Below the pieces are notes generated by a model, which saw only the letters and a program-made list of their open reading frames with translations, was not told where the DNA came from and made no database searches. 64,000 nt of DNA, taken from contig NW_020170410.1 of assembly GCF_000524195.1 (NCBI RefSeq), positions 658,574 to 722,573 on the forward strand, read 5' to 3'. A program made the position numbers and the translations under genes. The DNA comes from Echinococcus granulosus. Lineage: Eukaryota; Platyhelminthes; Cestoda; Cyclophyllidea; Taeniidae. This document shows, one piece after another, positions 20,496 to 63,484 of this stretch. How positions within the stretch are numbered: position 1 is the stretch's first letter; every line of letters starts with the position of its first letter.

Positions 20496-20689
20496 TGTAG
20501 TGGTCTGAGTTTGTTCTAAAGCAGAAAAAAATTCATAATACTAGGACAGAAAACATTTTGCTGACGAACAGAAGGGCCGATGGGCCACGACCATGGACCA
20601 TGGGTCATACCCTTTAGTGATTTTTAAACTGATGAAGCCTTAAATGCCCGTGTACCACAAACGAAATGTTAAATAGCCTAATTATTACA
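20496..20689 (-). mobile_element. Solo LTR, type B, minus strand
   Basis: A 194-bp copy from TGTAGTGG to ATTATTACA with AATACTAGGACAGAAAAC, TTGCTGACGAACAGAAGGGC and GTGGCATG-like blocks in the expected reverse-complement order. The length equals the family norm. Flanks (CTTA, GAGC) do not form a target duplication. Confidence 0.78.
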
Positions 20690-21365: not shown

Positions 21366-21564
21366 TGTAACGGCCTTAGTCTTTTCCGAAACCTACCGAA
21401 TTCATAACACTAGAGAAAAAAAATGTATTGGTGGCGTACAGAAGGACGTCGATACTACTAACCTGTCCGGGAAATCATACCATCCAGCAAAAGTACAATC
21501 GCTAGACCGTAAGCGCCTGCGTAATCACAAAGGAAGAAAAAAAACAAACATCCAAATTATTACA
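21366..21564 (-). mobile_element. Solo LTR, type B, minus strand
   Basis: A 199-bp copy starting TGTAACGGCCTTAGTC and ending ATTATTACA. In between are ATAACACTAGAG, GGTGGCGTACAGAAGGACG and CAAAAGTACAATCGC, which match reverse-complement landmarks of the family. The long plus-strand open frame across it (21295-21621) is a by-product. No target duplication found. Confidence 0.72.
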
Positions 21565-22059
21565 TTAAAACTCACACGCTTAATGCAATTTAAAGTCAAC
21601 TTATTTCAACACACTATATGATTTAAGTGTTTAAATCTTTTCGAAGTAATTGAAATGGATCGATCCACATCTTTACCTCATTTTAAATAGTAGATTTCAA
21701 GCTACTGAATTAGGGATTCTAAGACATGCAAGATCCATGACAGGAGACGATCGTCTTCGTAGGTGAGTGCAAAAATGATCTATTAAAAGGGAGGATGGTA
21801 TTTGTCACTTTGTTCGCAAGTTCCCGTCTCTGTATCAATTTCTTACATTTTCGTTAGTATGAACTGGCAGGAGCTGTTTTGCGTAATGGCGTGTCAAATG
21901 AACAAACGAAAAGCAAACCACGGAACGTTTTTTCATTACCTACTTGCCTAATCACACAGGTGGCTAATTTATACAAAATTAACGCATTCTTTGCAACTTT
22001 TAACGGAAAATTTTTCCAAGTTCCTAAATATTATGTGCGTTTTTAAGAAGCATTTGAAA
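21565..22059. other. Unassigned stretch left of the tandem duplication
   Basis: No gene or recognised repeat. The left edge of unit 1 is placed at about 22060 because convincing similarity to unit 2 begins there. Confidence 0.35.
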
Positions 22060-25000: not shown

Positions 25001-27850
25001 AGAGAACAACTTAATTGATCATAATTTTGAAGGATTTCACTTAGGCTACATGTTAGTCAGATTCATGGATTGTATCAAAATCCTATTCTCCGAAATTCGA
25101 GGGAATTTGCTGCAGCTATCTAGTCATTGTAAGATTTTTTTCGAGAAAATTCGTTATTCGGTAAGTGTGCCCGTAATAACTGGTGACTAAATTATTTATC
25201 CAAATTACCCCCGCTCCTATTACATCATAATTCTTTTAACGAGAAAGAACGGAAGACCATGTGTTATAGACTCAGTATTTCTCCTTTCCACCACAGTCAT
25301 CATACCCCTGATTCGAGCGTATTCAGGGTACGTCTACCCCTCAGGTCCCGTGACGTCCGGTCCGTTGTGGTTCGCATTTACTGATCGACTTGTGCCTAAA
25401 CGGTACATTTCAACAAACATGTGTCATGTTTGTTAGATATTTTATCAAACAAGTTGTCAACACTTATGTGAGTGAGTTTTATTATAACCTAGATTCTTAG
25501 TATCTCCTTCAAAATAGTCTTCATATTGCTAGACAAATGAGTTCAAATTCATTGAATCGTGGGATGATGCTTGCATCCCGGAAATCCTCATGGAAAATGG
25601 TTATACTTTACCGTGTGAACCAAACAAAAAACACCATTGCGGGGGCTGCAGAAGTCCTAATAAAAGTCGGCTAGAAGGTACAATGAAGTAGGTAAAATCA
25701 GGCCTTAATGACGGTGTAACTTTTTGCTTAACCAAATAGCATTCACGGTAAAAATGTAAGAATTTGGCCTTCATTATGCACCTTCGAGAAAAGAGTTACG
25801 AAAGGATTCATCGGGGTGTCATATAAGCCGACTGCAAGAGCTAGGTAACTCTCAAGACTGGTTGAGTAAGTCTAATAGAAAAGACGACCCTTTGCTGCCA
25901 GTCGGATTGCGAAAGAACTTTTGTTTCTGCACCAAAATAGCCAGTAGCTACATAAAAAGGCCACCAGAAAAGAAGTATTTTTCATTTGAATTTATAATCG
26001 AGTGGGCAGTGGCTTTCCGTACATTGATGTTGTTCCAATTTTCAAAATTTTACATGGCTTATCAATTAGTTATTTGGAAGAAGAGTTTCAAAGTAATAAC
26101 TTTCACTCGAAATTTGTGTCGAACGGTAATAAACAAATGCCAGCATTAATGCAATTCAAACACAATAAATGGTGGATTAAAAGCCATAACCCTGACCTAA
26201 CTAAAACTTCAAATTGCTCTTTAGAATCAAACCGTATCACCTTGCACCAATGCAATTAACACATCCTACCAACTCCAAATAAAGGAGAGCTACTGTTTCC
26301 TATGGTTGTGTAGAATTACAAAAATGCACATTGTGTAAGCATAAACTGCCTTTTCTTTAAATCACCCTGGCCCATTAAGCTTTTGTTCCCCTCGACGGGA
26401 GATAGGAGGTTACTAATCTACTGTTTAAAACTAAAGCCTGATTTGTATGAAGGAGGAGGCTTCACAACATCCCTTTGTAATATAAGAGGCCCTGTTCAAA
26501 ACAGCCTTGAAAGATCACCGACAGGGTCCATGTTTGGTGCACACATTGGTTAGGAATCAAGCATTTAATATACTAATAACTGAAAAATATTCCTTACAAG
26601 CTTCACTTTTTTTGAAAATAAAGCAGTTACCGGTTTTCTCTCACATTAATTCATGTATCTAAGTCCTATAAGAGCCTGTCCCCACTTAGGCGGTGGTTTC
26701 TAGGAACGAAATTCCTTTTGAAAAGCTGATTTGAAATATCATTTTCATTTACATACACTACTTGAATGAGAGAAATAAGTAGTGTGTTTCGAGAGATTTA
26801 AATTCTCCCACCTGCATTTTAATGCAAAGCACACAAATCTAGCAGTTTTATTGTAAGAAACCTGCACTGAATGCTCACACAACTCTTTAACCTGAAGATC
26901 ACAAATAAAAATAAAGATTTCAAATAGCTGCGTATCGAAATTTATTCTAATGCAAATCCGGGTTGTAAAAGTGGGCTGACAATGAATAGATTTGCACTTT
27001 GAAGCCACCCATCTTTTTTGCTGTGCCGTTCAAGCTCGTACTGACTACAGAAAAGATTTAACACCAGGGCAAAATATGTGCTGCTGACGTAGAGAAGAGC
27101 TGTAGGAAGCCACTGGTTTAGCTCGTGCGTTATCTTGCCCAGCCGAAGTTCAAAAGCGGAGCTTCAAGTGCACGCGAAGCAAAAACGATTGGTAAAAACA
27201 AATGATCGGTGCATTACACTTTGATTTATCTCCTGGTAAAATATTCTAACAAACTTTGTGTAATATAGTGTGGCTTCAGGAGCAAAATATATCTTAGAAT
27301 GCAAAAAATTCTATTTTAAATATAAGTGCCTGTAACACTTATTTCGACCATTACTAAAGTTTCGAGGTTGCATCAAAAGACCGCACCATCGGCAAAACTC
27401 AACTGTCTATAAAATTTGAAGAATTCGCAATCAACTGTTTAAATTTTGTATTATCACACTTCAAGAATAACAGTTTTGAATCTTAATTATTTGAATTGCA
27501 GAAAGGTAAAGCCTAGAGTGCGTAATATTGCATGATTGAATGTTTCATTTAGGCTTCTCGTCAATAAATGATTCAAGTAGTGTGCTATTCACATTAACAT
27601 TACTTTGCTTGAATTATAACACCTGTACCAGTTCACAAGTAAGGTGATGGTAAAATTTCAGGATGTTCTAACAACTCTGACCTTATTACAGTTTTCCCTT
27701 CTACCCAAATTTAGGCAGTGAAATTGGGAGTCATCTTTGTCATCTTGGCATCCATTTCAAATTATCTTTGATGCCTTGTACTTTAAGTGAAAATGTAAGA
27801 GCCTCTTCTGCAGTGGAAATAATACATTGATGACAAAAAAGAAAAGAAAG
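22060..27850 (+). repeat. Tandem segmental duplication, unit 1
   Basis: Collinear similarity to unit 2 (28718-37750) runs the whole length. Examples are the TCATTTGTTTT..TTGGCTATTTTGAAAGATT block (22080 with 28733), the GGGTTGATTTAT block (23155 with 29951), GCACTTATAATCCGTAATAT (23976 with 31453), ACATTTGACCC / ACCTTTGACCC (24973 with 32385), the GAGTAAG block (25865 with 33328), and GCATC..AAGACCGCACCATC (27371 with 35873). No coding frame is conserved between the units. Boundaries are approximate. Confidence 0.75.
27042..27218 (-). mobile_element. LTR, type B, minus strand, inside unit 1
   Basis: CCAGGGCAAAATATGTGCTG followed by CTGACGTAGAGAAGAGCTG, then AGTGCACGCGAAG and a GTGCATTACA right end, are reverse-complement family landmarks. 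The LTR at 35597 occupies the matching place in unit 2 and shares the ATGCACGCGAA-type block, so both probably descend from one insertion. Confidence 0.75.
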
Positions 27851-34036: not shown

Positions 34037-35596
34037 CATTTAAAGGATCGTTAATTAGAGGTATTCGGAATAAACTACTCCATCTGTAAAAGAAAGCGTT
34101 CATAGGTTCTCCTCCCACATTCATTTTCATACATCTTAGCATCGTAATGGCTTGTCCTTACGTAAGAAATAATTTCAACGAAAGAAGCGTTTTCTCAAAA
34201 TGGAGGTACTAGTCTTGACAGTAGACAGTGGAAGTAAAGGTTCTAAAGGTTCTAAGGATTATAGTTATTACGTTCTCAAAATCAGTAAAACTATACATCC
34301 TTCAAAGGTATAGATAGCTGCTGGTGATTTTAAATTATTTCCAGGAGCCTATTTATTTTGAAAATGATGGTTTCTCTCACAAAAATGGAGGACAAATAGT
34401 AGCAGTGGTATTCTGGATTTCGGGTGTCATAAGACTTATCCGCATTCTACTCCTTCTTCATGAATCTGCACCGGTTATGCGTCCGATAATGGGATTTGCC
34501 GTGGAATGGTAATGTCCAGAGCAATGCTTGAAATATGAACACGTGGTTGAACTTTTTCCTGTAGATATGAAACCTAGGTGAATTTGTGCTTCCCGCGGAA
34601 GAAAAGCTACTGTGCATGTGCAAGAGCATTTTTCAGTGAGGTATCCTTCACGGAAAGAACACTAGGGCGAACAGAAGTAGGTATTACAAGGCCTCGATGT
34701 GCACAAGGGGAAGAGCCTAGCCATTTCAAAAGGATTACAACGTGGCCTTGGTTAATGTAAGGTAGTACAGGTAACGGAACTATCCATGGTCAGATGTTTG
34801 ACACCGATAACTTTATAACGGGAGTAGAGTTCAGTTGTTGTAAGTACAGGTGATGGAGGAAGATCTAAAGAGTAGTCCTAAGCAAAAAATATAATTTTTT
34901 TGTTAAAATAAAGATTGAATGCAGTAGAAATCACAATTCCACTTGGAACCCTTTCACACAAATCGACATAAGCGCCCTCGCTCTCCATCCGACACACACA
35001 AATTGGTATATTCTCGGTGTGTAGCTAAAGATATCCATTCAGTATTTCTTAAAACACATTAAAATGAAGTACTTTGGAACTAACTCCTGCCATGTAGAAG
35101 TTGTATGCATACAAATGCGTACTTGTTGCATGCCAAAAAATTAAAACAACTTGCTAGCTCACTAACACATAGAATCTACACTAGTTGCTTTTAAAGTAAA
35201 TTTGTTCATTTACATATAAGAATTGCAAACCTATCCTGTTTTATCACTTAAAATAAACACAATAGGGTCAAGAGTTGGTTAAAATCTAGATACTATCTAG
35301 GCGGTTCAGTTCACGCCGCTATGGGTTATTCTGCAGTCCCTTACTCAACACTTTCCGTATTCAACTCACATCTACCCAACTGAAAAGTCAGTCATAACTA
35401 ATGTTGGCTATAGCAGTTATTCTCGAGACATCCAAATCCAGTGCTAAAATGTTTCATTTCCTTCTTTGCATGCCAAAGTTCGTTTATAGGAAAAATCAAA
35501 TGAGGTTCCTGATTATAATGAAGGGCATGAATTCCTGCTATCACAGCACTTCCAAAAGTCACTCCAATACTTAGACGTAGCACCTCAAGTCCATTC

Positions 35597-35763
35597 TGAC
35601 GACGATCGAAGACGTAATGCTAAGGCAGAATCTGTGTTGCCGACGTGCAGAAGGGCTAAGGGGCTACTAGTATGGCCCGAGGGTCATCTAGCCCAGTGGA
35701 AGTACACGGATGAAGCTTTAAATGCACGCGAAAATAAATCAAAGAGTTGAATTTTGCGTAAAA
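35597..35763 (-). mobile_element. LTR, type B, minus strand, inside unit 2
   Basis: AATGCTAAGGCAGAATCTGT, TTGCCGACGTGCAGAAGGGC, GGGGCTACTAGTATGGCCCG and CCCAGTGGAAGTACACGG are clear type B landmarks in reverse-complement order. The right flank, starting about 80 bp away, matches the right flank of the LTR at 27042, supporting a shared insertion older than the duplication. Confidence 0.8.
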
Positions 35764-36280
35764 TAGTGGATAATCAACAACAAAAAGCATTGTTCAAAGC
35801 AAGAAACGCTGTTCTAATCATAATTGTCTGGATCATTTATTCCGCATCATTATTAAAGTGTAGAGGCTGCACCAAATAAGCGCACCATCAGCAAGATTTA
35901 AATGTCTAAAAAATTTGGAAAACTTTTAAACCATTATTAAAAAATTCACAATTGCCTCAGTTTGAGAAGCAATCCGTTAAAATGTGACAAGGTGGAACCA
36001 AGAGTGGTCCTCCCAAGCATAAAGGCATAAACGTTATATACAAGCCTTTTGCTGCTCAATGAGCATGCAGGGATAAACAGAATCGAAATTCACGTTTGAG
36101 TCTTCCGTTTTGAGTTTGTGTGGTCAGAATTAACATTCATTGTATCATTTTACTCCCCACAATCAGACAGTGTGTGAGAAGTTAAGGCTAAACAATACCA
36201 CAGTCTGCAGGCAAATCATAATTATTAAATGCAGTAAAGAGTGAAATTGCAGTGGTGAATGTGGTTTCGAGAAAACACAG

Positions 36281-36469
36281 TGTAGCCCCCCGAGACTTCC
36301 CTGAAGACGAAAGAAGCCCTAGTACTCGGGCGGAACACATATATGCGGCAAAGAGAAAGTATTTGTGTAACTGACACATTCCGAAGGCCGACTCACCCGG
36401 CGTTACAGCAGACTCAGGTCCAAAGTGGCTCTTCGCCAATACCGAGAAATAAACAAGCTTCGTATTACA
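36281..36469 (-). mobile_element. Solo LTR, type A, minus strand
   Basis: A 189-bp copy beginning TGTAGCCCCCCGAGACTTCC, followed by CTGAAGACGAAAGAAG, and ending CGTATTACA after CCAATACCGAGAAATAAAC. It is an end-to-end type A LTR. Flanks ACAG (36277-36280) and ATAG (36470-36473) match 3 of 4 bases, consistent with a worn 4-bp target duplication. It lies in a part of unit 2 that unit 1 lacks. The minus-strand open frame through it is a by-product. Confidence 0.85.
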
Positions 36470-41300: not shown

Positions 41301-44300
41301 GCCGACACTTTTGCTTTTTATAAAAAGGACGACTTTAATTCTGATGAGATAGGTTCAATAAAAACAAAAAATATTCCTCTATATGTCAAAGGTTCCAAAG
41401 GAAGGGGATTTTGTGGGTATATTATTTTGCTAAGGAGTTTGTCACTTTTACTGAAAAGATTTCGTTAGAAGTTCCTGTAAAATGAGACAATATCCCCTAC
41501 TCTGCAGAGGTATTTTCAAATTTCTAAGAGAATCAATTTTTCCTTTTCCGCCCTTAACCTTGCAACACTTTTATAGCTCACGAATTACTTGCTGGGATAC
41601 TTAGCTACTAAAGTATTCTTACAGGCCAGAACGAACAACTTTAAACTCTGCCAAACGCTTCAATTCAATTTACTACCCAGTGCTTATGGTTCTCATGCAA
41701 TATTTTATGAATGTAATGGGAGAGCTGGTAGTGTGTCTGTGGTTTTCCCAAAGGACAACAAGTAAAGAATGGCAGAATTCTTAGTGCTCGCCTTTTCGAC
41801 AGTTTTTGAACATCTAACAAACATTTATCTTATCTGCCAAACGATCCTTACACTATGCTGTTTTGCTCAAATTTTCCCTTAGATGTCTTTGGATATGAAT
41901 AGTCTTGGTGATAAAACGAATCAACGTGGTATGAGGTCGGATAAAGTGCTGTCTACGAATTAATCGCAGCTTCCACTTTGGTTAACTTCAATCTCATGAA
42001 CGCTAAACGTTACATGTGTCCACTCCAAAGTCGTAGCCTTAGCATCTCTCATTCAAACTTCAAGGGTAAATTAAGATCAACAAATTAAATGCTAGAGAAT
42101 ATTTAACTCAAATAAATCATTAAAGTACTTGGGTTCACCAAAAGTCGCCCGTGAAATGGATTGGTTGAAATGTCTATTAAATCACGGTTCTGATAATGCG
42201 AAATGTAACAGCATCGGGATTTGTCACACCTTAAGATATCGTTTGTGCTACAACTAACGCAAAATTTCTCTACAGCATTTTAGTCAGTGTAGCATTCCTA
42301 AATGAAAGACAATTTTCATAAGTTGACTACCTAAAAAAATTTATATTTGTAAAAATCAAATTTGTTTTCCTCAGAGTTCAGAAATGAAAAGGCATATTTT
42401 CCAGAAGTTATTTTTGACATACGTTAACACTACTAGTGGTTCTTTGTCGGTAAGATTTAGAAAGAGGCTGCGGAAAAAGGAACAGGGCTAGAAAAAACGC
42501 CGATGTAATCTAGCATTTTATGGATGCCTGTTTGTACTTTTAAGTATTTTGCATCAACCTTGAAAATTTTTTCTTTTAGAACTCGCCGAATTATTCCTTA
42601 GAAATGCTGCAAATATATCGAATCCAGCGAAATACGGTTTTTTAACTGCTCTGTCTTGTTCACCTTGGCCAGAAGATTATATCTCACGGCGAAAGCACAA
42701 AGGCTGAGCCTTAACCACTGGCAAAACCAAAAGGAAGAGGGGGGCAAATTGTCAAAGGTTTAAGGGTAAGGACGGATTTTATCGTAAATTGAAAATACAA
42801 TTCTCAGGAAAATAAAATCTTCCTGAAGTTTTGATCCTTTTTTGGTTTGTAGAATCAGTGTATTGAAGGGCGAAGGCAACAATTATCAAGTCCGCTTATA
42901 AGCTCTCTCATTTGTCTCTAATGTTTCGAATAAACCCACACCCCACATTAAAAGAACTGATTGATTTTTAAACGACTTTAAGAAGTGTCTAAAGTTCATT
43001 TGCTTTTACGGCATTTGGCATTCTGCTTCCATCAATTTACTGCATTGGTACATTTGTAATGTTTCCAGTAAGCCCCCTGTTCATCCACCAAACTGCCGCC
43101 TGACTTATTTCTCATCTTTTCCAGCTTAGTCTCATCAACTACTTATGCTATGGGAGTGAAAAAATCCACTACCATTTCAATTTTTTGCCTGAAAACACTT
43201 TAATAAATGACATTTTGCAAGTCCTTCTAGTGATTCTAGGTTTTTTTTACACAAAACGATAGTATTAGGCAGAAATTACTATTAGGAAGGGAAGAGTTAC
43301 CACATTTGATGACATTTGATTCGCATGTACAACGCCACATAAATTAGACTAACATAGAAAATTTTTCCAAATTCAGTGATAATCCGTACAGTTTATCATC
43401 TAGCTAACGTGCAGGTCACCTTTATATTACTCGCTGTCCAGGTTTCAGTATTTGTTCATAGGTATCGGGTTTTCATAAGCTAGAGAACTTTCTCCCACTG
43501 CATGATGCTTCGGCTACTTTTAAAGTAACTGAGAGCAGTTGAATCATGTTTAAAATTTTTGTTCGCCCTTCAAAATGTGGGGACAGCAAGTCATTTACTT
43601 GGTCGACTCAAAATTAGTTCTAATTTTAGGAGTAATTGATATTACAAAGAGTTGCAAAGTATTTTTTTGTTAGCCTTCACAAAGAACTTTGAGCCTTAAG
43701 ACTTGGAATTATCTACCTAATGTATCCGCTAAAGTTGTACTGATTTAAATTGATTTAATTTACAGTATTTTAATTCGGCTTTTTACAGTGAAGGTCATTT
43801 AACCCTTGTTTGCGGGTGACTTAGTGGAAAGATAGTGGAAAAGCGTTATAGGGAAAGACAATGCAGTGGGACATGTTCATTTGAAGCACCAACTCGTGGC
43901 GACCACTTGTTTACAACGCAGAGTGATTCACGTATGATGTGTCATATTCTTTACTCTCAAGCTGTTTTATTCTTTAGGACGACTAGCACCACTTTTTGTC
44001 TAGGCAATACCATGATATGAATTTGTATGATATTCAACTTCAGTATGTTCTCTTCAATGGGTTAGTTGCCACGTCTTACAGATTACACGATCTCATCCAT
44101 ATGGCCATAGAAGTATAAATTCACTTCAAAATACTTTACAAATACAAAGATTCCCATAAATTAATTAGGAAACTCTTCAAAACAACAGTGGTGACAGTTA
44201 TTTTAGGAATTACTATCCCTTCATGAATTCATAAAGATGGTTTAAATGATTAATGTCTATTAATCCATGGATGAACTCAGGGAACACATTCCGAAACCGA

Positions 44301-50965: not shown

Positions 50966-51160
50966 TGTAATGCTTTAATTGTTCTTAAGCCCTTTGATTC
51001 GAATTTGGGGTACTAAAGGATCCGTCTCTGTACTCCCACTGGGTGATATAGCCCGGAGGCCATTGTCAATAGCCGCTTGGCCCTTCGGTACGTCGGCAAT
51101 ACACATTCCGCTCTAGTATTATTACTTCATTCTTCTTCGTGGAAGTCTGAACGTGTTACA
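50966..51160 (+). repeat. 5' LTR of TRIM element 1 (type B)
   Basis: 195 bp from TGTAATGC to GTGTTACA, with CACTGGGTGATATAGCCCGG, TACGTCGGCAATACACATTC and CTCTAGTATTATTACTTC as type B landmarks. Confidence 0.85.
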
Positions 51161-51161
51161 T

Positions 51162-51179
51162 TGGAGGCAGTGGGGAACA
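51162..51179 (+). other. Candidate primer-binding site, TRIM element 1
   Basis: TGGAGGCAGTGGGGAAC starts one base after the 5' LTR end. It aligns with TGGCATCGGAAAGGGAAC in element 2. TGG complements the CCA end of a tRNA. The tRNA is not identified; a leucine-type site is a guess. Confidence 0.5.
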
Positions 51180-51830
51180 ATCCCGACCGTAAGAGACACC
51201 TACTTTGATATTTATTACTCAATGCTGAACCTTACCTTGACGATGGGAGAACAAATGCTGCGGATGAAAGAATTTGCTATGATCCCTAACAGAAGGGTGA
51301 AAGTGGAGGTCTATTGTCCGCATCTACCCCATCTCCATTTTCTACAGGATCACTATTAACAGCTAAAGCGACTCTATCTCGGGCTGTGAGTCTTATGGAA
51401 AGTTTTACACAAAGCTGTCTATGGTACCTACATGAAGATGTCAACTACGTGAACACACGATACCGCCACCACTTCTCTACTGGCCGGGCAGAACGTAGGC
51501 AGATATGGCTGAACGGCTTTGAAGTGAGAACAACGTGGCAAGGAGGAATAGGCGCGAAACTTAACCACCATGAAACTATTTTCATCCTCGTCCTTTATCA
51601 AATGACTCTGCTTATAGGCCAGTGTACTTAGAACTGGCGATGGACATACGTAATGAGCGAATACAGTTATGAAACTGCAAGAAACTCCAGATTAAATGAA
51701 ATTACTAAGAGGAATCAGCAGCCCCGCTGTCAGATATTTTTTCAGTTGCACGCAAATCCACTGACAGCCGTCTTTGGTTCGTAAGTGCTCTTCACATAGC
51801 ATCAGCTACGCAGATGATCAAAGGGCCGAT

Positions 51831-51849
51831 GCTCAAAAGTAGAGGAAGG
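51831..51849 (+). other. Polypurine tract, TRIM element 1
   Basis: GCTCAAAAGTAGAGGAAGG directly before the 3' LTR, matching GCTCAAAAGAGGAGGCAGG at the same place in element 2. This is where plus-strand DNA priming is expected in LTR elements. Confidence 0.7.
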
Positions 51850-52054
51850 TGTTCCAATACTTTCATAATTTGTTTGACCCTTCCTTTTGGTTTCAAAGAC
51901 GCCTAAGGTCCCGCGGTTGTGGGTTCACTGGGTATCATGGGGTCTGAGCAACTCAGTTATCTCCTCACACCTTCCATAAGTCGGTAATGCGGTTTCTGGC
52001 CTGATATTATGACCTTATTTGTCTTCAAACAAGGATAAAAGACGTAAGATGCGC
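51850..52054 (+). repeat. 3' LTR of TRIM element 1
   Basis: Begins TGTTCCAATACTTTCA and keeps GACGCCTAAGGTCCCGCGGT and TTGTCTTCAAACAAGG of type B. The last 30 bases are worn, so the exact end is uncertain. Confidence 0.7.
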
Positions 52055-52249
52055 TGGCAACACTCCGATAGTTTGTTTAACTTTCTGTCTTGGTTTCCAG
52101 GCCATCTGAAGCCCCGCTTCTGCACTTCAGGTGGGTAATATGGACTGTAGGCCATGCCGGTAGCCGCCAGTCCTTCTCTACGTCGGCAACATTTTCTACC
52201 CTAGTATTGTTACTTCTTTTGTCTTCAGACAAGTCTGAGGGAGCTATCA
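52055..52249 (+). repeat. Extra LTR abutting TRIM element 1
   Basis: 195 bp from TGGCAACACTCCGATAG to GAGCTATCA, with GGCCATGCCGGTAGCCGCCA, CCTTCTCTACGTCGGCAACA and TACCCTAGTATTGTTACTTC. It sits head-to-tail against the 3' LTR with little or no spacer. Confidence 0.78.
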
Positions 52250-52833
52250 TTTCACTCTGCTCTCAATAACTACTAGTTTAATAGGTGGCAATATTATCTT
52301 GTACCAGTTTTATTTACTTTAGGAAAAAAGAAGTTCAGTTAAAGCCCAGAGAAATTGATCCTTTCTTCTTAAACTTTAACTTAAAATGAACACAAAAATC
52401 AAAACTCTGGAAAGTAAATTGCATTGAGAAAGACTGGAAAAGAAAATCGCCTTAAGCCCGATTTGGTGATTAAGATAAAATCGAGCTACCTCAATTTATT
52501 TTGTATGTGTGAACGATGTAATCTGCGCAATCGCTGATACAATGTTTTTGCCACTCAAAAAAGCTGATTTGGTGAAAAAAATATATAAAAGTGGACGCCT
52601 CCTTCAATAAAATAATATAGGCTATTCAGTTGTGCTTATAGCAATGTAAAATCGCAGTCAACATGCACCAAAAATTGGTGATGAAATGAGGACGGTAAAA
52701 TTCAAGGATGCATAAGTGTTCATACAATTTTTCGGGCATCAATCAGTAAATAAAGCATTAAGGTTCCGTGTCCGCTTGCACTTGCTCAAGAACTAATGCA
52801 GAAAATGTGTATTTATTCCAAAATCAAAGTTAA
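52250..52833. other. AT-rich spacer between TRIM elements 1 and 2
   Basis: 584 bp with no gene and no recognised repeat. Confidence 0.45.
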
Positions 52834-53028
52834 TGAAATACGATTGTGGTCTATCCCTCGGCATTAGTGAGGCTCCACTTTTGTACTTTGAATTGGCTCT
52901 CTTGTACCTCGCTGGGTGGGCTGGTCTTTCGGGCCATGCTAATAGCTCAGCCACCTTCTCCGCGCTGAATATATATTCTGCTGAGTATTTTGTCTTCTTT
53001 CGTCTTCAGAGAGTTTCGGGACGCTACA
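52834..53028 (+). repeat. 5' LTR of TRIM element 2 (type A)
   Basis: TGAAATACGATTG to GGGACGCTACA. Contains the TATA-like palindrome GAATATATATTC at 52967-52978. Confidence 0.88.
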
Positions 53029-53032
53029 TTTG

Positions 53033-53050
53033 TGGCATCGGAAAGGGAAC
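53033..53050 (+). other. Candidate primer-binding site, TRIM element 2
   Basis: TGGCATCGGAAAGGGAAC, four bases after the 5' LTR and alignable with the site in element 1. It looks partly like leucine-tRNA sites used by some LTR elements; this is inference. Confidence 0.5.
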
Positions 53051-53600
53051 CCGATCTTAAAGGACATGTATCCTGATTTTCCACTTCTGCGTGATGAGCC
53101 TTAGTGGAGCGGAAGAAGTACATATGCTACGGATGGGAGAATGATGATGACCCCTAATAGAAGGGTTTAAGTCGACCTCTACCTTCGGCACCTATCCCAG
53201 TCCCGTGTTCTGAAGAAAAGCTATTAACAACTGAAGCGACACTAGCCGTGAACCATCTGGAAGTTTCGTTACAGATTTCCCCTACCGTCCCCCATGGATC
53301 TGTTTTAAATCTTGTATTCCCTTATTCAAATCTGCTTTTAGGCCAGTGTTCCTGCATCTATCTATCGACACGCATGATGGCCAGCGCAATTCCCCGTCCT
53401 GAATCAAGTTCCTAAACCAGACGAAACTTCAGATCCAGTTAAGCTGCCAAGAGGGATCAGTGACGTTGAGGTTAAGTATATCCTGAGTTGCACGCTAATT
53501 TGGTGACTGGCACGGTCGGATCGCGGGTGTTTCTTTACAGCACCGACTACGTTGTAATGGCTGACGCGAGATGTTGACTTGAGGGAGCGCCGGGGACGGC

Positions 53601-53622
53601 GCTCAAAAGAGGAGGCAGGCCA
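53601..53622 (+). other. Polypurine tract, TRIM element 2
   Basis: GCTCAAAAGAGGAGGCAGG, then CCA, directly before the 3' LTR. Conserved with element 1 and, more loosely, element 3. Confidence 0.7.
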
Positions 53623-53816
53623 TGTAATACGATGGTGGTTTATCCCTCGGTATTGGTGAGGCGCAGCTTTTGTACTTTGGACCAGCCTTCTTGTGCCTCG
53701 CTGGGTGGGCTGGCCTTTGAGCCATGCCAATAGCCCAGACACCTTTTCTGTGCTGAATACATATTCTGCCCGAGCATTATCTTCTTTCGTCTTCAGGGAA
53801 GTCTCGGGACGCTACA
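53623..53816 (+). repeat. 3' LTR of TRIM element 2 (type A)
   Basis: TGTAATACGATGG to GGGACGCTACA, with GCCATGCCAATAGCCCAG carrying a CCAAT box. A minus-strand open frame of 112 codons across this LTR and the interior is a by-product. Confidence 0.88.
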
Positions 53817-54891
53817 TAACCTTTTCGGAAAATGTCATTACCCCACTTAATACGAATTTTAATTAGATGTAATTACATTAAATTAGTGGTGGATTTTAAC
53901 ACAAGTCAGATGCAAAACGACTTTTTAGCTTTCATAGTTGTCTGACAGAACTTCTAAGTGTCATAATTTTTTCCGAGGAATAAAATTAACAAAATTAAGT
54001 AAAACAGAATAAAAATCAGGTGATTACGCGCAAGCGAAATCCTTCAACCTATCTACTGAACATTGTTTAGCGTTAGCGGTGATTTTAAGTCTCCTCCAAA
54101 ACTCTTCCGCATGATGGAAGAAAAAACCTGCAAAATGTTTAACAAACTACTGAGCTAAGCTAACCTTGAATAGGGATTAAAATTTGCTCTTCAATGTTAC
54201 CATCCACAGTAGTATTTAGTGACTTCAGGTTTTATATATGAGAATCAAATTTCGTTATCTTCCTCATTTCAATGTTTTTTTTGGCGCCGTTTTGCTAATA
54301 AAGCCAAATAATTGCTGATACGCATGCATTTAAGAGATTTGCCAGTTATTACTTACCAATGCCATTTAGACTGATTTGGTGTTAGGGCAAAATACCCAGA
54401 AATTTGTTTGAATAATCCTCTTACTGTGTCCCGCTTAGTTAAAAGTAGTTGAGTTTCCGATAGTAACTTTTTACAGGCAAGTGTTGTTAATTTAACTTCT
54501 TGTCGTTGTACTAGCGTTTAGCGTCGAAGAAGAGCGGATTTCCCATGTTAGGCATATCTTCAAAGCAGTGCTGTAATAGAGCGGTTCTTCTACGTAAAAA
54601 ACCCGTTCTGAGACCTTAATTTAGTACTTATTCGCTGTGTGCCTTTCGTAACGTCGTGTCTAAGCAAAACATTCATCTTAACTACTTGTGATTTGTACTT
54701 TCCACGGAGGCATAGGTAAAATTGCACACGTTGCTTACCATGCTGTCACGAATTCGGGTCTCAAATTGATCCTTTAGAAGGTATAGAACAAACAGGCTCA
54801 GATGTGTCAACCTATGACATCTGATGCAAACTGTGTAGTGCTGTCGTACTTGTCATTCATAAAGACGAAAATATGATTCTGACTTGTGATC
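53817..54891. other. AT-rich spacer
   Basis: About 1.1 kb with no open frame of note, no recognised repeat and no RNA gene. Confidence 0.45.
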
Positions 54892-55080
54892 TGTAATACG
54901 TTGGCTGTTTAACTCCCGGTTTTGATGAAGGATCACTTTTGTCTCGACTAATGTACCTCTCTGGGCGGCTGGCTGGCCTCCAAGCCATGCCAGTAGCCCT
55001 AGTAACTTTGCATGCTGAGCACATATTCAGCTAGAGCATTGTGTCCTTGTTCGTCTTTAGGAAATTTCCGGGGCGCTATA
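54892..55080 (+). mobile_element. Solo LTR, A/B mixed type, with 4-bp target duplication
   Basis: A 189-bp copy from TGTAATACG to GGGCGCTATA, flanked by GATC on both sides (54888-54891 and 55081-55084), a perfect 4-bp target duplication. The left part carries TGTTTAACTCCCGGTTTTG as in type B, whereas the right part, TGTTCGTCTTTAGG to the end, follows type A. It lies about 700 bp upstream of the gene at 55775 on the same strand. Confidence 0.85.
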
Positions 55081-55774
55081 GATCGGATTTGTCGGACTGA
55101 GTTACCTAGACGATATGAGATCCAAATAGGTCTATCGCACAGTACAAAACACTGTCTCTAATGGCTCGTTAGAATCGTCAACACGTCCTGCTGCATCAGG
55201 CCCTTCTATTGTTCATTGTCTCGTTCATTGATAGAGAGATTACAGTGGAATTGTTGAGGTCACTGACATGAACTCGCAAATCTGTTAGGCCTAGTAACTA
55301 CATAAAGAGTGAGTAGCTTGTCTTTTGCAGAACCGCGTCAAATAGAAGCCGGATATGTTAGAGCTAGGGATTCTTAATAACTAAACAGTTAAAGTTGTAA
55401 AGTTGAGCGCATAGATTGTGTATCAAACCTCTGCACTCGTCATCTCGAGTGTTGATGTAAACGTGTATTTGATGTATACATTAAAAAATATATTTGTTTG
55501 CATTTAATGCTGGTAAGAGCATATATGCAGCCTTAATTATTCCAACTGAAAAGATTTTACTTGATGCAGAATTAAGTTAACCGACGACATACAATCAAAG
55601 AATGTTATTTGTTATCGAAGTAAAATTCTAGTTTTGCATCAACTGTGCACAAAAAATTGTTTGCAATTACTTAACAAAAGTGCTTTCGTTTAAGTGTGCC
55701 AACGAGTAAACTATGTCCTTGAACCGAAAATACCGCGAAATACTGTGCATTTCCCGATATGCTAAATTACCTGG
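55081..55774. other. Upstream region of the 120-residue gene
   Basis: 694 bp between the solo LTR and the start codon. AT-rich words such as AAAAAATATATTTG (about 55484) and GCATATATGC (about 55519) could serve as promoter elements, but nothing decides this. An in-frame stop (TAA, 55763-55765) lies 9 bases before the start codon. Confidence 0.35.
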
Positions 55775-56137
55775 ATGTATCCTCGAAATGACTTTGCTGC
55801 ATTTAAGCTCAATTACATTGCCCTTGCCTTTGGCTTTGGAGTTTTAGTGCTAGGAACTTTGTTTCTTTTTATTTGTCGGAATTATGTTTACGATTATACT
55901 AACAAGGATCTCTTCTTACCATTTGGAATCCTGTTGATCATTATTGCAATTATATTAATGATCGCTTTTGGAGTACGCATTGGTCGGGATTGGATTAAAA
56001 GCACGGATTTTATGAAGTTAAATGAAGCTATTCTTCCGAGAGATGAACCAGAGCAACAGGATATACAGCCTCAGTCACCTCAGCATTCATTGATGACAGG
56101 TGCCTACAGCGTATTCAATACACAGTCACCAATTTAA
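55775..56137 (+). CDS. Small two-pass membrane protein, function unknown
   Basis: I do not recognise the family. The 120-residue product has a short polar N-terminus, a first hydrophobic segment at about residues 14-34, a loop of about 11 residues starting RNYVYDY, a second hydrophobic segment at about 46-67, and a hydrophilic tail. The stretch right after the second segment reads RIGRDWIKSTDF, a basic-aromatic run that looks constrained. The last 30 residues are rich in Q, P and S. Topology is uncertain; both segments are followed by arginine, so a hairpin is likely. The ATG is preceded by an in-frame stop 9 bases upstream, so it is the first possible start if transcription is unspliced. The frame has no intron and third-position variety typical of real coding sequence. 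It could be a single-exon gene, a last exon, or a retrocopy. It is much more protein-like than any other frame in the window. Confidence 0.72.
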   Translation: MYPRNDFAAFKLNYIALAFGFGVLVLGTLFLFICRNYVYDYTNKDLFLPFGILLIIIAIILMIAFGVRIGRDWIKSTDFMKLNEAILPRDEPEQQDIQPQSPQHSLMTGAYSVFNTQSPI

Positions 56138-59100
56138 AAAGAATGTACTTCTTGCTTTCATATGCGTCGTCAAATACAACCCTCTAGCTGTAAAATATTC
56201 AGCATAAAGTGCTTTTTACTTATTCGTGTGTGAATATCTGGGGAACTATATCTGCCAGGGAAATATTGTCTAATCTATTTTTGGCTTTTTGCGGTTAGTC
56301 ATTAGCCTAACGTAAACGGCATGTGGGTGCTAAAATTATGCTAATTGTCCAAAGCAACTCCAATTATTTAACCGTTTTTGTCTTGCTCCTGGGTTTTGTA
56401 TGATATCATAATTTATTGTAATGCTAAGTTAACCTGACTCCATTTGTATGCCTTTTACAATTATCATTTTCCCCTTCGATTTGTTAGCCATAGTTTTACA
56501 AAATCAAGCAACTTTTTTAACTGTGTCTTTATAAAAGCTAGTATGATATTGTTAAGCATTCTTTCCTTGGCCTTTTTGAGCATTAAATTTGCTGATTCAA
56601 GTTAAAAAGCCCTCGTACTGCTAATTTACCGGTAGCATATCCTGTACGGACTGAATAAGGAATATCGTGACGTCGTTTATGGTATACATGTTGAGTTTAT
56701 GCAAGTGTTACGTAGTTGTAAGATTGCTTTTGTTTCTCTACATATGGTGAGCGAAAAGTAATAAAATCCAAGAAAAAATCGTTAAGATTATATCTCGGCT
56801 TTAAAGCGAATCGCAAATCACAGGAGGACAAATATACTGTCTAGCGGCAATTATCATCCTATCATAAATTGATTTTTGCTTAGGTTGAATTTCGCATTAG
56901 CTTCAAATCATAAAGCAAAGCAGGATTTAACAAAATGCCAATTTATAGTGTGATATAAGCAAATTCGACGTGGGATCCTTAGTGAAAGGGACGCTTGTAG
57001 CGTTTTAACTTGAGCCGTCTCTACAATGATCATTGTTCCTTATTTCCTAACAGTCACTGCTTTAATAGACCAAAAGCGTAATGTTTTCATTTTATGTACC
57101 AATTCACTCCTTCCTTTGGACAAAACGATATAAACCTGGTCGCTTTCAGCCGATTTCTTCCTTTTAAACATGGTTATATACATTTCGAAAAGTAATTTCT
57201 GTCAAGAATTACGATGACTAACATTTCTTTTCCTTGAAATTTGTTTAAGGGTACAGAAATGAGGTAAAGCACGAATTGTTAAGCGGCCACATGAGACAGT
57301 GCTAAAAGTATGAGCAAAAAATATTCGAAATCTAGTGATCGGGATCTCGCATCAACTTGGTGACGCCATTAGAAACTAGTGCAGCTAAAAGACTTCCGTT
57401 TTTCAATGTCAGACAACAAGCTGACAGAAAATTCACTTATGTACAGACAAAATACTTTCCATCTTCAAGGTAAGAAGACCAGTTTTTCAGTTTGCAGAAG
57501 AAAAATCACTGAATGGCTTTCAGGAACTAAACTGGATTTGACGAGAAGGTTCTGATTTATGTATAAAATATCTGTGCAGCAATAAAATCACAAATCTCCA
57601 TGTAATTGAGATGTAGCAACATAGTTTTTGCTTTAAAAGTACTTGTATTTAAATGGCTGAAGTAGGCACCTGATTGCTTTATCACTTTGACACAATATTT
57701 CGAGGTTGTAAAAACACTCAAACTACTTTTGATCCCTCCCCCTTTTGTCTTTGATGACATCACTGACTCGTTTTCTGATGTCAAAATGCATATTATTTTT
57801 CTAAATGCGTAAAATATAGGGGTGATCAGTTTTGAATTCAATTAGTGAAATTTTTTATTATTTTCTGATGCTTTTAAAAGGCGATGACGCTAAAAGGGGC
57901 CAGGGCATATCCTCAAAATTGACACCCAGGTCGCACCATCTTAATGCTTTAATGTAACAGCCGTTCGTAAAAATTGACAATTAGATGTGCTCGATGTTGA
58001 GCATTTTAATTTACATTAATTAAACTTGTATCTCAAGCCATTTGAGACATTCAATTTATCCTCTTGGTGATTAACCATTCAAATCAACAGTGGGACAAAA
58101 CAGGCGGCTTAAAATCATAAAGTGGCAGCCAAATCTTGTAAGCCCCCAAGAAACATAATTGTCATCTTAAATTATTACAGCTCTAAAGTTGGTCGCGTAA
58201 GAGCAAGTTTTGGCATTTTTGTAAGTCTTGACATGGAAATTGCATGTGCTTTCCCCGAAAATGACGAGACTCTGAACTCCACTACTAACAAAAGCACATT
58301 GTTCAGATCGGACAAGGTTGGATAAGCTTGTCAATACAAATACCTAACTGGTGCTTAAAATACGGAAACAGCTAGCTAGAAATTGTACTGACAGTAGTTT
58401 ATGTAGAGTCTGTGTTATCTCCATAATTTTGTATTTCGCTCCGATGCCCTTAAGTACCTACTTCAGTGTCTTTAAGTGTCGGTAAATCATTTTTGTGAGC
58501 ACAGGGGTTTGTCTCGTTTCTTAAAGGAATTGTAGCCTTCGGTCTCTACTAAAATGGACTTCAAGGGTAATTTTATAGACGTGTAAGTGGGTTAATGATT
58601 CTTATATCAAATGCCTATGATGGCTGTTGTAAAATCAGTATAGCCACATAGAGACCTAAAAAAAGTGAAACATGAAATGTAAGTGATAGGCTCGCAAAAA
58701 ACATTGGGTCTAAACTATAGAAGACTCTCTTTGACCATATAAATCAAAAATTTTAATTTTTAAAGAAGTAGTTTTAGTTTGGTGCAATGTATTGCTGGTC
58801 CGAGAATTCAACAGCAAAAACAAATGTATACAAATAAATCCCTGTAAAAACAATTAATAATAACCTTTTCAAAGTGGTCTAAGGAAGTAAAGAGAGGAAA
58901 ATCGGTTCTTTAAATGGATTCCTCCTCCTCTGAATTCAGGCGGATGAGCGTCAGAAGATTGACCTTTATAGCAACATTAATGAACCTTCCTGTGGGACAT
59001 AATGAAGTAGGTACTTTCAAAGCGGTTCTGCTCAGTTGTCGGATGCATTTAAATCCCGGACGGATTAAGCCACAAAGCTGAGAGATGATGGCGTCTGGCT

Positions 59101-61439
59101 GATAATTCAGTTAATCGAAATTAATCTTATTCAAATGACATCCCGTCTCCCTATCAGCCACCTGTCAGCTAAAAAACTAAGACCGCCATCACGCTGGAGC
59201 TTTTAACTATTTGATTACTTCGTTCACGTTATGATTAGCACTTCACTCTCTCTTCACGTTTCTTCTTCTTCAAAGCCTAATTAAGATGGCTACATTTAGG
59301 GCATTGAATATGGCATCTGCTACTAAATGTTCAAATAATGGACACCTGAATCACATAGAGATTCAGTTTGTCTAAAAGCATCTATTTGTTTACTTGGAAC
59401 GCCCTTGGGCGTGCCCTAATGAGAATTTGATAGAAATACCGAGCTAGCAAGAAAGGGTAGAGTAATTTGCGTGACTAGATCTAAAACTATTTACTCCATA
59501 CTGCTGTGCAAAATCAAATGATTGCCTTGATTAGCAGCATGCCAAGTACTGTGGTTAATATATCAAACATTAATGGACAAAAAGAAGCCCCCATAGTAGT
59601 ATCCAAAATGGAATCTTTCGTGCGTTGGCCAAAGTAAACAGGCGAGTAATTTTTTTTTCTAGTGGGAATTTTACAATGGTGACTTGAAGTGGAGTAGGCT
59701 TTTGTTATAGTATGTGGATTAGATAAGTCATTAATGGAAAACAAAGGAAGGTTACTCGAGCGGGGTAGGTTATGCGCAGTATTTTTCTCTTACTTTTATT
59801 TTCGATAAAAAATCCCAATTAGCGAGACAATTTAAATAGAACCGCGACTTCAAATTCTGCATGCACAAGGGAGGATGCTACTGCAAGGATAATGTAGAGA
59901 ATAGTAAGTGTTAATTGCCTTCCACTTATGTCCATATCACGGTGGATGGCGACAGTGTTAGCGGTAAATAAAGTGGAACAGCGGATGCGCAGATATCTAC
60001 TGATACCTAAAATGGCTTCAGACACAGATTTTGTGGTAATGTGGTGCCCCTATTCTCAACAATAAAAAATTTGTATAGAGTCAGTATTCCAGCCGGCAGT
60101 AGCACTGCACGGTAGGCTGCAGTAGATCCCATTCCACCTTAAGTGTGAAAAATGCTTCACCCTGGTAGGGAACGGACGTATAATCTGCCATGCAAACGAA
60201 TAGAAGTCGAAGCCTTCTGTGAGAACTGATAGCAGTTATTTCTATGACAAACTTCCACTTCGACTCTGAAGTTAAAACTGGCTGTACGGAAAGATTAAGC
60301 AAAACTGACAGGTCTTCCGCCCTGTCTAAGCTTTCCAATTGCTAGTTAAAAGCGGGATTAAGTGTTTGAATGTAGCATTAAAATGTATCAGATGAAGATC
60401 TTTACTCCCTGAATTTAAAACATGAGAACCCCCTGTCGAATGTACTCCTCAATGATAAAAATACCATCAAGTGGTTAATAAGTGAGAATATATTCAAAGT
60501 ATAAACTACCGAAATTCTTGAATTTCACAAAAGCTGATTCCAAAATACACAATAATTAACCCACAGTCTACACCAAAATTAGCAATACTAAGTTCATTCG
60601 GCATTTTTCTGGCATTAGTGAGGATACCAGTATAGGTACTTAAATGTCTTACGTAAACTTTATGTTTGGTGCTCTGTGTCTATTTGAAAGCAAAGAGAAT
60701 ACACTTTTGTCACCTCAAAACCATTAAATATGTGCAGTTTGAGAAAATTATGGGGAATTAAAACAAGTGAAACTTTTTAATAGAATTCGGTAATATTATC
60801 GAAAGTGCGTGTTGACAGTTACCAGCAGGTCCAAGCACAGTGAGGAGGAGAGCAGAGGAGAACTTTAATGATCCGAAAGAGCGTAGTCTGTCTAGGAAAT
60901 AGGCGTCATGCTTGAAGAATATTTTTCCACCTGGTTCAAATTTCCAGCCATTATTAGACGTCTTTTAGGGTAAAAGGTTAGAAAACTTATGAATTCCAAC
61001 TTAAATTGTCTGTAAGTCTAAATGTAAGTTGTTTTTTCGACTTAAAAGGGCAGTAACCCAAGCAATCTAGTAGAAAATTCTCTCTTTGTTCATTTAATAT
61101 CAACTGATTTTATTGGTGGAAAGGGATTTTATTTATTGTTTCCAAGAAGGTGTGGAGTGAATTCTGTCTGCTAAAAATGTCTTAAGCATAATACTTCAAA
61201 ATTTATGAATTTAGGATAGGTAGAAACTTTTGTTTCAGTGTGCCGAAGTACTCCGTGATTCTATTAGCGGAGCTGCATGCCTTTCAGACTTTTTGATGAT
61301 TCCCATTAGATTATTAAAGATCACTTTTGAAACCCCAGTAAGTTAGCCGAACACTAAACACTTTAAAAATTCATGATAAATTCCACACCTCTGAGAGTAT
61401 CTTTAGACTTATTCTTTTTAGTCATATTCTATCCAACTA
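56138..61439. other. Unassigned stretch, no supported gene
   Basis: The first part is presumably the 3' untranslated region of the upstream gene. Beyond it, short frames up to 94 codons (57557-57841 minus) and two minus-strand frames at 59819-60338 show no recognisable domain. No LTR of the family recognised. Confidence 0.4.
56760..56765 (+). terminator. Possible polyadenylation signal (AATAAA)
   Basis: AATAAA about 620 bp after the stop codon of the 120-residue gene. The hexamer occurs by chance in AT-rich DNA, so the link to the gene is tentative. Confidence 0.25.
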
Positions 61440-61632
61440 TGATAATACTGCATTCGTTTAAATTTAGAGTTAACCACTTCAGCTCCTCCGTCTTTAAGTT
61501 TCTTATCACTGTCATGGTGGTAAGGTTATTCATCTGTGCCTATGGCCTGCCAGCCCTTCTTGAACTAGTAACCAACATTCCTCCGCACTAGTATACCTCA
61601 TTATCCTTTTAGAGATTAATCGAGATGTCGCA
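61440..61632 (+). mobile_element. Very old LTR copy, type B-like
   Basis: From TGATAATACTGC to GATGTCGCA, 193 bp. GCCTATGGCCTGCC, AGCCCTTCTTGAACTAG, AACATTCCTCCGCACTAG and CATTATCCTTTTAG follow the order of type B landmarks with many substitutions and small deletions. The 72-codon open frame across it is a by-product. Confidence 0.58.
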
Positions 61633-62378
61633 TGACATTTTCAAAAGTCAAAAATGCTTCAAGTGTGCAGACTAAATCTGCAAAACTTATGCCATACATT
61701 AATAAGCTAAAAGCCAATTCAAATCACAGATAAAGTTATTCGGTAAGTTTACAGCACCGAGGTGTTAGTAACTATCATTACTACAGCTACATGCCACCGA
61801 AAATGGGGAATCTGGATTGCCACCAAATCTTAACTATTTCCGATAAAAGTTAAAAGTTTAATGTAATGTAATGTAAGCTTTTGTTTAACTAGAATAAAAA
61901 CGATAATAAAACCCACTATTTGACGCTTGATGGACTTATAATTTCATAAATGATCTTCAATTTAATTAACAATCAAGACTACTGTTACTGAAGCATCGTC
62001 TTTTATCATAAGAATCCTTACCTATTACAAAAGTGTTTTCGGTATTTGATTTTGCCTATCAATGCATAAGGCAGTAGCGTAAGGTAAGTTCTACTGAATT
62101 TTTTAACACAAAAGTAGGAGGGCTTGTGCGATGCAGTTACTGTAAGTGGAGCGCAATTACGGTGAGTGGACTAAAAGGAGGAGAGTGCTCTCCTATGCGT
62201 GTAGAGAAAACAGGAACATTTTAAGCTAGATAAAAAATAAAACTGATATCCTCCCCTGTAAATAAAAAGATTAATGATGCAACAAATTATTCCGTGTTGG
62301 GATGAATGTAACTTTAATTTTAATGTTTTGTAAATTTGACAACTCTGACTAAAAGAGAATTTATTTTATGGTGAATTA
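61633..62378. other. Unassigned spacer
   Basis: About 750 bp with no gene. A short local duplication (TAATG TAATG TAA) lies near 61861. No larger repeat seen. Confidence 0.4.
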
Positions 62379-62601
62379 TGCAATGCTTTGGCTGTTTGTT
62401 AAACTCTTCTTTTCGGTTTTGAGGGCACTTAAGGCTCCGCGTTGGTACTTTTCCTGAAAGGCATGGTATCTGGGCGACGCCAGTAGACCCCAGCCAATTC
62501 GTACAATAGCAATACATATTCTGCCCTAGTATTATAATTTTCCTCGATTTTACTAAAGACTTAGAATACTATGTTGGCGACAGAAGAAAGGAAACGCTAC
62601 C
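62379..62601 (+). repeat. 5' LTR of TRIM element 3
   Basis: Starts TGCAATGCTTTGGCTG and contains GGCTCCGCGTTGGTACTTTT and CATATTCTGCCCTAGTATTA. About 28 bp longer than usual near its 3' end. Confidence 0.75.
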
Positions 62602-63289
62602 TTTGGGTCAACTGCACCAATTTCTATCTCAGTATGCTGAATGTTAATGTGACGGAGGAAGAGCATAAGCTAGGAACGGAGGATTCTGTAACTACGCCTA
62701 ATAGAAGGCTTTGACTGACGTTTACCTTTGCCAACTACCCAGTACCGCGTTTTTCAGGAATGCCATTACTATCTGAAATGGCACTGGCCGTGGCCGTGAA
62801 CCACCTAAAATAGTTTGCTACGGAGTTGCCTATGGTACTTCTACGTGGTGAACGTGTAATACCTCCTCCACCTCTCTACTAGCTGGATGGAACGCAGACA
62901 GATGTCTGGCCAGCTTTGGAATGAAAACAAAGTGCTGAGGAGCAGCGGAGGCGAAAACTTATCCCACAAATTCATATGAAACCTGTCCTTTACTCATTCA
63001 GCGCCTTTAGGTCAGAATTTGTACGATTACCAATGGATTAGGTGATGGCCAGCACATTTCTCCTTCCCCAATGCAGATCTCCAACAGGACAAAACTTCTA
63101 ATCTTGTTGAATTGCCATGAGGGATCAATGGCATTGCAGTCCTCTCTCTCCGTTGCAGGCAAATTTGATAGCTAGTTAGGTTGGGTCTTTGAATTTTTTT
63201 CCTTGCAGCAGTGATTAGGTAGTAAAGACCTACGCGGGAGGTTGATCAAATGGAGTTTCGAGAAATACGCTTAAAATGATAGGAGGTTA

Positions 63290-63484
63290 TGCAATACTTT
63301 GATAGTTACTTTAATTCTTCTCTTGGATTACGCGCCTGCTAAGGCGTCGCAGTCGTACTTTCGCTCAATGGCATGGCTTCCAAGCCATGCCAGAAGTCGC
63401 TCAGCCCCTCTGTATATCGGTAATGCATATTCCGCCCCAACATTATGTCTTCGTTTGTCTTCAAGGACGTCTCGAGTGGCTATA
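63290..63484 (+). repeat. 3' LTR of TRIM element 3
   Basis: Starts TGCAATACTTTGATAG and contains AAGGCGTCGCAGTCGTACTT, CCATGCCAGAAGTCGC and TTCGTTTGTCTTCAAGG. 195 bp. Confidence 0.8.

Follow-up and report, generated by a model that had tools for sequence, protein, structure and literature searches.

The closest described system to the DNA considered here is ta-TRIM, a terminal-repeat retrotransposon in miniature (TRIM) reported by Koziol et al. (2015, Genome Biol Evol, PMC4558846), on portions of whose main text our comparisons with that paper draw. It is found in Echinococcus and in other taeniid tapeworms, with many solo long terminal repeats (LTRs). The LTRs are of about 198 bp with TG..CA ends and enclose a gene-less interior of about 590 bp, which has a primer-binding site (PBS) to leucine tRNA and a purine tract directly ahead of the 3′ LTR. 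Of 57 E. multilocularis cases, 52 were reported to have target duplications of 4 bp, whereas those of Taenia are of 5 bp; the RNA starts and ends within the LTRs, expression is high in stem (germinative) cells, splicing inside ta-TRIMs occurs, and TRIMs of different hosts are regarded as convergent (PMC4558846). A repeat of Echinococcus canadensis, E.canG7_Brep, has 88.5% identity over 70.2% to an E. granulosus TRIM (portions of PMC5327563). Here we analyse a 64-kb stretch of E. granulosus DNA (C243:658574-722573, hereafter the window), which holds several miniature LTR elements, within an assembly searched over 103.6 Mb and 272 contigs.

We are almost certain that the elements of the window are copies of ta-TRIM, a known miniature non-autonomous LTR retroelement of taeniid tapeworms. 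The initial annotation of this DNA had recognised a TRIM-like family and did not say whether it was known; it has already been described, as ta-TRIM (PMC4558846), and what we add is a modest and seemingly unreported observation, the stepwise loss of interior length. We think it reasonably probable that ta-TRIM shrank stepwise while mobile: from an interior of about 700 bp, by loss of 124 bp at ACCGT repeats, to the 594-bp form of the main young family; and from there, by loss of 109 bp at CCGTCC repeats, to a 486-bp form which was itself inserted. No mention of such forms of about 700, 594 and 486 bp was found in the main-text portions of PMC4558846, its supplements being outside this scope. 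The two-LTR units of the window are as follows.

50966..51161, + strand: element 1 LTR A (5′ LTR), from window mapping and LTR alignment
51162..51852, + strand: element 1 interior, long form, 691 bp, with a degenerate PBS, TTGGAGGCAGTGGGGAAC following ACA, at its start
51853..52050, + strand: element 1 LTR B (3′ LTR of the two-LTR unit), whose true start may be a few bases earlier
52057..52250, + strand: extra LTR C, almost adjoining LTR B
52834..53028, + strand: element 2 5′ LTR
53029..53622, + strand: element 2 interior, mid form, 594 bp, with a degenerate PBS TTTGTGGCATCGG at its start and a purine tract AAAAGAGGAGG before the 3′ LTR
53623..53816, + strand: element 2 3′ LTR
62379..62573, + strand: element 3 5′ LTR
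62574..63288, + strand: element 3 interior, long form, 715 bp
63289..63484, + strand: element 3 3′ LTR
20498..21565, - strand: element 4, with 5′ LTR 21565-21365, interior of 675 bp (long form) and 3′ LTR 20689-20498

Mapping with young and old LTRs and interiors as queries gave 18 LTR stretches and 6 interior stretches in the window, and 0 matches with the same queries in the reversed window. In self-comparison elements 1, 2 and 3 are related to one another over about 1 kb, with element 1 aligning to element 3 at 59% over 1121 aligned positions (E 2e-56). These are the three elements originally proposed, and all three do have direct LTRs, of 194-198 bp; it is the extent of element 1 that must be corrected. 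This element carries three LTRs (A, B and C), C lying about 6 bp past B, and since the A-B unit is the portion that aligns with element 3 (50963-52028 against 62376-63464), the end first given to it, 52249, takes in an extra LTR: the two-LTR unit ends at about 52050. LTR C could be either a tandem LTR or a separate solo LTR. The count of three two-LTR members was also too low, as there is a fourth unit on the minus strand at 21565-20498 (a self-comparison match near 21594-20511), together with nine further LTR stretches and one interior remnant.

The LTRs of a pair are 85% identical in element 2, 70% in element 3, 68% in element 4 and 65-67% in the three pairings of element 1, with global alignment scores 7.1 to 24.3 standard deviations (s.d.) over shuffles. 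The interiors of elements 1, 2 and 3 are homologous, as had been proposed, at 65-69% identity (z 14 to 19 for the three pairings); their lengths, put at 594-689 bp, were re-measured as 691 bp (element 1, A-B), 594 bp (element 2) and 715 bp (element 3). The TGG said to follow the 5′ LTR is present as TTGG directly 3′ of it in elements 1 and 3, and element 2 reads TTTGTGG there; the purine tract said to precede the 3′ LTR is clear in element 2. The absence of a gag or pol frame stands: no coding frame was found in elements 1-3, whose longest stop-to-stop stretches (113, 135 and 72 aa) are inside the shuffle range, and no frame of at least 150 aa occurs in the whole window.

Copies of the young kind are widespread in the genome. 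With element 2 as query, 39 other places at E = 0 were among the matches listed (40 of 2657 candidates scored), and 36 of these align to 934 or more of its 983 bases, with 86-89% identity. With element 3 as query (40 of 465 candidates scored), the matches listed were, besides itself, only old relatives, at 64-69% over long matches; among the shorter matches identity rises to 75% (about 100-260 bases) and, in a single piece of 44 bases, to 86%. We read 30 loci, element 2 and 29 fetched copies, which are the best matches to element 2 and no random sample. LTR length is 194-200 bp in 55 of their 60 LTRs (extremes 185 and 206), and LTR ends are mostly TG..CA (exceptions L041, L044, L052, L061 and L062). 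The interior is of 583-595 bp and opens with the published primer-site letters, TTGGTGGCAGCGGAAA, in 21 loci and with small variants in the other 9; AAAAGAGGAGG stands ahead of the 3′ LTR in 25 loci. A target duplication of 4 bp was seen in 15/30 and of 5 bp in 1/30, with neither in 14/30, while in a cross-pair control (flanks of different loci) 4-bp matches occurred in 4/870 and 5-bp matches in 0/870. At about 990 bp the whole element lies within the size of the TRIM class (under 4 kb, typically 0.5-1 kb, no gag/pol); the gene-less copies of about 1 kb are dispersed, and lone LTRs occur as well. The TRIM assignment first made is thus supported by its structural marks: LTRs, PBS, purine tract, short gene-less interior and target duplications.

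A less selective sample came from the 22-base LTR/PBS junction, which has 351 genome matches at up to 2 mismatches (control 0). All 20 loci first fetched by this junction open with ta-TRIM interior, L072 for 38 bases only. In the full set of 30 junction-chosen loci the far interior part was also found in 17; of the other 13, nine have assembly gaps, L099 stops at a contig end, and in L072, L074 and L082 the interior gives way to other sequence. Full-length relatives with gag/pol in the interior, the finding that had been named as able to overturn the TRIM assignment, were looked for among these loci and none was seen, nor any other coding interior, with the limit that the 13 loci unread to the far end cannot exclude one.

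Assembly gaps were met in or beside the element in 11 of the 30 junction-chosen copies (L069, L076, L079, L081, L086, L087, L095, L096, L097, L101 and L103). Young copies probably break this assembly, and counts of young elements are likely to be low. Around L053 (G000:C239:235579-237630) about 2 kb contain three ta-TRIM pieces in head-to-tail order, all on one strand, in keeping with the tandem copies mentioned in PMC4558846.

The tie to the published element comes from the primers printed in PMC4558846: TTGGTGGCAGCGGAAAGC and TCAGGGAGTCYYGGGAYGCTACA both fit copies read in this genome, and the PBS letters of the copies are as published. At these printed primers the sequence agrees with that of the published ta-TRIM. 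E. multilocularis has an LTR at EmuJ_000465100 that E. granulosus lacks (PMC4558846). The 19-base gene primer of this locus has one exact match in our genome and one with 2 mismatches (control 1 within 2 mismatches), and its LTR primer has 14 matches with 1-2 mismatches and 0 exact (control 0); no LTR was found in the 2.8 kb upstream of the gene-primer match, where a longer intron would hide one. These primer matches point, indirectly, to a taeniid host, an Echinococcus and probably a species other than E. multilocularis.

Several observations weigh against identifying the window elements as ta-TRIM. Elements 1, 3 and 4 are only 67-68% identical to the young interior, and the LTRs of each pair only 65-70% identical to one another, so that on their own these elements could hardly be assigned; other old copies, and intermediates such as L084 and L078, link them to the family. 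No 4-bp target duplication was seen by eye at elements 1 and 3, and the flanks of element 2 show a 3-bp match only and no 4-bp duplication. Nor did three genome patterns yield an accepted tRNA-Leu gene fitting the PBS: the first found nothing, the second one place that is no tRNA, and the third one place with 2 mismatches. That third place, L094 (G000:C8:7780-7960), is tRNA-Leu-like by eye, with a normal T-arm 3′ half and a degenerate 5′ half; it was not accepted as tRNA by ARAGORN, and Rfam gave nothing above gathering score on both candidate places.

The interiors fall into a long form of about 700 bp, a mid form of 594 bp and a short form of 486 bp. Those of elements 1, 3 and 4 (691, 715 and 675 bp) hold one region which is absent from element 2 and the young copies (594 bp). 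The copy L084 keeps the long region (714 bp) though it is otherwise 87% identical to the young form, and its extra segment aligns to element 1 with a score of 265 (shuffle mean 85, maximum 133) and to element 3 with a score of 174 (shuffle maximum 122); against element 4 the score is 119, below the shuffle maximum of 139. Three copies, L071, L075 and L083, lack about 109 bp more at that site (L044 interior positions 255-262). The lost lengths are the distances between direct repeats, two ACCGT 124 bp apart in L084 and two CCGTCC 109 bp apart in L044, and both losses begin at the same place. The nine mid-form copies in which the variable site was read have the site of loss in common, and L071, of the 486-bp form, has two LTRs, a PBS, a purine tract and a 4-bp target duplication. 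Since the site of loss is common to dispersed copies with their own LTR pairs, the losses would have been inherited through retrotransposition. Template switching of the reverse transcriptase at short direct repeats would be the likely cause of both. Intron loss was considered as their cause and rejected, as no boundary reads GT...AG, judged by eye with the 5-bp and 6-bp repeats allowed for.

A census of forms over 88 loci (L001-L088), in 62 of which both LTRs were found, relates these forms to LTR divergence (K, by the Kimura two-parameter measure, K2P). The long form accounts for 24 (interior 576-741 bp, median 702; K 0.173-0.502, median 0.321), the mid form for 34 (K 0-0.202, median 0.075) and the short form for 3 (K 0.058-0.124), the last locus having a gap; K of old copies is taken from locally aligned LTR parts and is biased low. 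With element 4 and ten further loci added, and L104 counted among the mid copies, the difference in K between long and mid copies persists (Mann-Whitney p 5e-11; 26 long and 37 mid copies with LTR pairs), a contrast which is inflated by long and mid copies having been fetched mainly by different queries. The short copies as a group are not younger than the mid copies. In the fairer junction-chosen sample, where 17 of 30 loci could be classed (4 long, 8 mid including L104, 3 short and 2 with a gap), K is 0.173-0.363 for long (n=3), 0.005-0.247 for mid (n=7) and 0.058-0.124 for short copies (n=3), and the ranges overlap. The placing of L104 in the mid form was rejected, as its variable site differs and it keeps part of the long segment; we assign it to the long lineage, with a deletion of its own.

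A tree was built from the conserved interior parts of 74 elements. The length forms require 5 changes on it, and shuffled forms 26.7 on average and never fewer than 17. Mid and short copies as one clade are not rejected (approximately unbiased, AU, test, p 0.70), and have a likelihood above that of the free quick tree; nor is a single clade of short copies rejected (p 0.57). In the free FastTree tree L084, a copy of the long form, is placed within the mid group with weak support, and the three short copies are scattered among the mid copies. The short copies may therefore include products of repeated deletion at the same repeats.

We have also weighed whether a miniature family exists at all. 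The copies might instead have arisen independently, by internal deletion, from an autonomous LTR retrotransposon that persists in the genome, with no self-propagating miniature family. In favour of this, lone LTRs and differing interior lengths do occur; the 13 of 30 junction-chosen loci that are not readable to the far end leave room for this, and all TRIMs presumably started as deletion derivatives. However, a common interior is found in dispersed copies that have LTR pairs and target duplications of their own, and the nine mid-form copies whose variable site was read have one site of loss in common. Furthermore the 37 genome places with an integrase zinc finger (H2C2), described below, are without an open frame above 311 aa, save one across an assembly gap, and at the sole integrase locus that was read closely, ta-TRIM is represented only by a nested solo LTR. 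We therefore hold separate deletion derivatives to be very improbable. That the matching long repeats arose by chance, or by local segmental duplication long ago, and are no retroelements, is more improbable still, to the point of being negligible. Elements 1 and 3, highly diverged and without clear target duplications, might be so read; but alignment scores are 7 to 24 s.d. over shuffles with 0 matches in the reversed window, target duplications are found in 16/30 loci against 4/870 in the control, and copies are spread over many contigs. For the element 2 group, which has target duplications, this explanation is thereby already refuted.

With ta-TRIM as a mobile family, its RNA would be packaged, primed by leucine tRNA and reverse transcribed, and insertion would be by the proteins of an autonomous LTR retrotransposon; LTR-LTR recombination would then leave the solo LTRs. 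The element lennie has been proposed as the mobilising partner, on the criterion of having the first 8 LTR bases and the PBS in common with ta-TRIM (PMC4558846). Our search for the integrase H2C2 family gave the 37 genome places at E ≤0.001, and no lennie copy was identified in the 2 that were looked at. An intact gag-pol partner was not found in this search, which was limited to the H2C2 family, other kinds of LTR retrotransposon not being searched: the open frame is of at most 311 aa at all of these places save the one across an assembly gap. A 692-aa ‘open frame’ at C199 was rejected as an assembly gap.

A further candidate partner, a ta-TRIM-like 3′ LTR by a gypsy-type integrase on C88 (L091, G000:C88:64200-67800), was also rejected, being a solo ta-TRIM LTR with ATAT at either flank. 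This LTR (L091:1812-1998, minus strand) is complete, of 187 bp with TG..CA ends, and lies within the end of the broken gypsy-type integrase frame, whose rve match is below cut-off; from its position within that frame we conclude that ta-TRIM inserted into an older LTR retrotransposon. Pairs of integrase matches with identical scores on the same contig were seen on C88 (66869-67033 and 95587-95751, 28.7 kb apart) and on C207 (447503-447658 and 452720-452875, 5.2 kb apart), and are either recent local duplications or assembly artefacts. At L090 (G000:C84:42156-43243) there is a COX1 fragment with an in-frame TGA and several frame breaks, apparently a nuclear copy of flatworm mitochondrial DNA (flatworm judged by eye).

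Considering the age of the copies, LTR divergence (K2P) across the 30 element-2 loci is 0.005 to 0.175, with a median of 0.075. In E. multilocularis it was reported as 6.1-22.9% in 21 elements, with a rate of 7.1e-9 per site per year (PMC4558846). This rate, a rough guide only, gives element 2 an age of about 12 million years, and the four youngest LTR pairs (L044, L088, L049 and L040) one of no more than about 1.4 million years. Each of these four has a 4-bp target duplication, and their K is 0 to 0.020. According to PMC5327563, evidence of active retrotransposition is lacking in E. canadensis and E. granulosus; near-identical LTR pairs suggest more recent insertion here than reported for E. 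multilocularis. Of the window elements, 1, 3 and 4 are very old and have the ancestral long form, and element 2 is a younger copy, without the 124 interior bp.

The remaining ta-TRIM stretches of the window are these.

6648..6843, + strand: lone LTR, 85% identity to the young copy L044
6878..7073, - strand: lone LTR
7757..8424, + strand: interior remnant in two pieces, clear LTRs not found alongside
9562..9737, - strand: lone LTR
13076..13255, + strand: lone LTR
27049..27218, - strand: lone LTR, weak (single query)
35575..35771, - strand: lone LTR
36281..36469, - strand: lone LTR
42663..42761, - strand: LTR fragment, weak (single query)
54892..55080, + strand: lone LTR

A single genome that keeps a dated series of interior sizes makes it testable how a retroelement becomes miniature. 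If ta-TRIM did shrink stepwise, then the middle of its interior would be dispensable for packaging and copying, and the packaging signal would be narrowed to outside the two lost segments (roughly interior positions 250-370, whichever form is taken). The LTRs of ta-TRIM drive transcripts in Echinococcus stem cells (PMC4558846).

Compared with the known systems, the copies described here and the ta-TRIM of PMC4558846 are alike in LTRs of about 198 bp, TG..CA ends, the PBS letters TTGGTGGCAGCGGAAAGC, the purine tract and an interior of about 590 bp; and, like the E. multilocularis ta-TRIM, they have mostly 4-bp target duplications and many solo LTRs. They differ in LTR divergence, where the range published for E. 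multilocularis stands against the near-identical pairs of the youngest four copies here. The E.canG7_Brep of E. canadensis is of the same family as ta-TRIM in another Echinococcus, and was classed as a repeat in PMC5327563. PbTRIM of the harvester ant, and plant TRIMs such as Wukong, are of the same class of short non-autonomous LTR elements, the likeness being one of description only.

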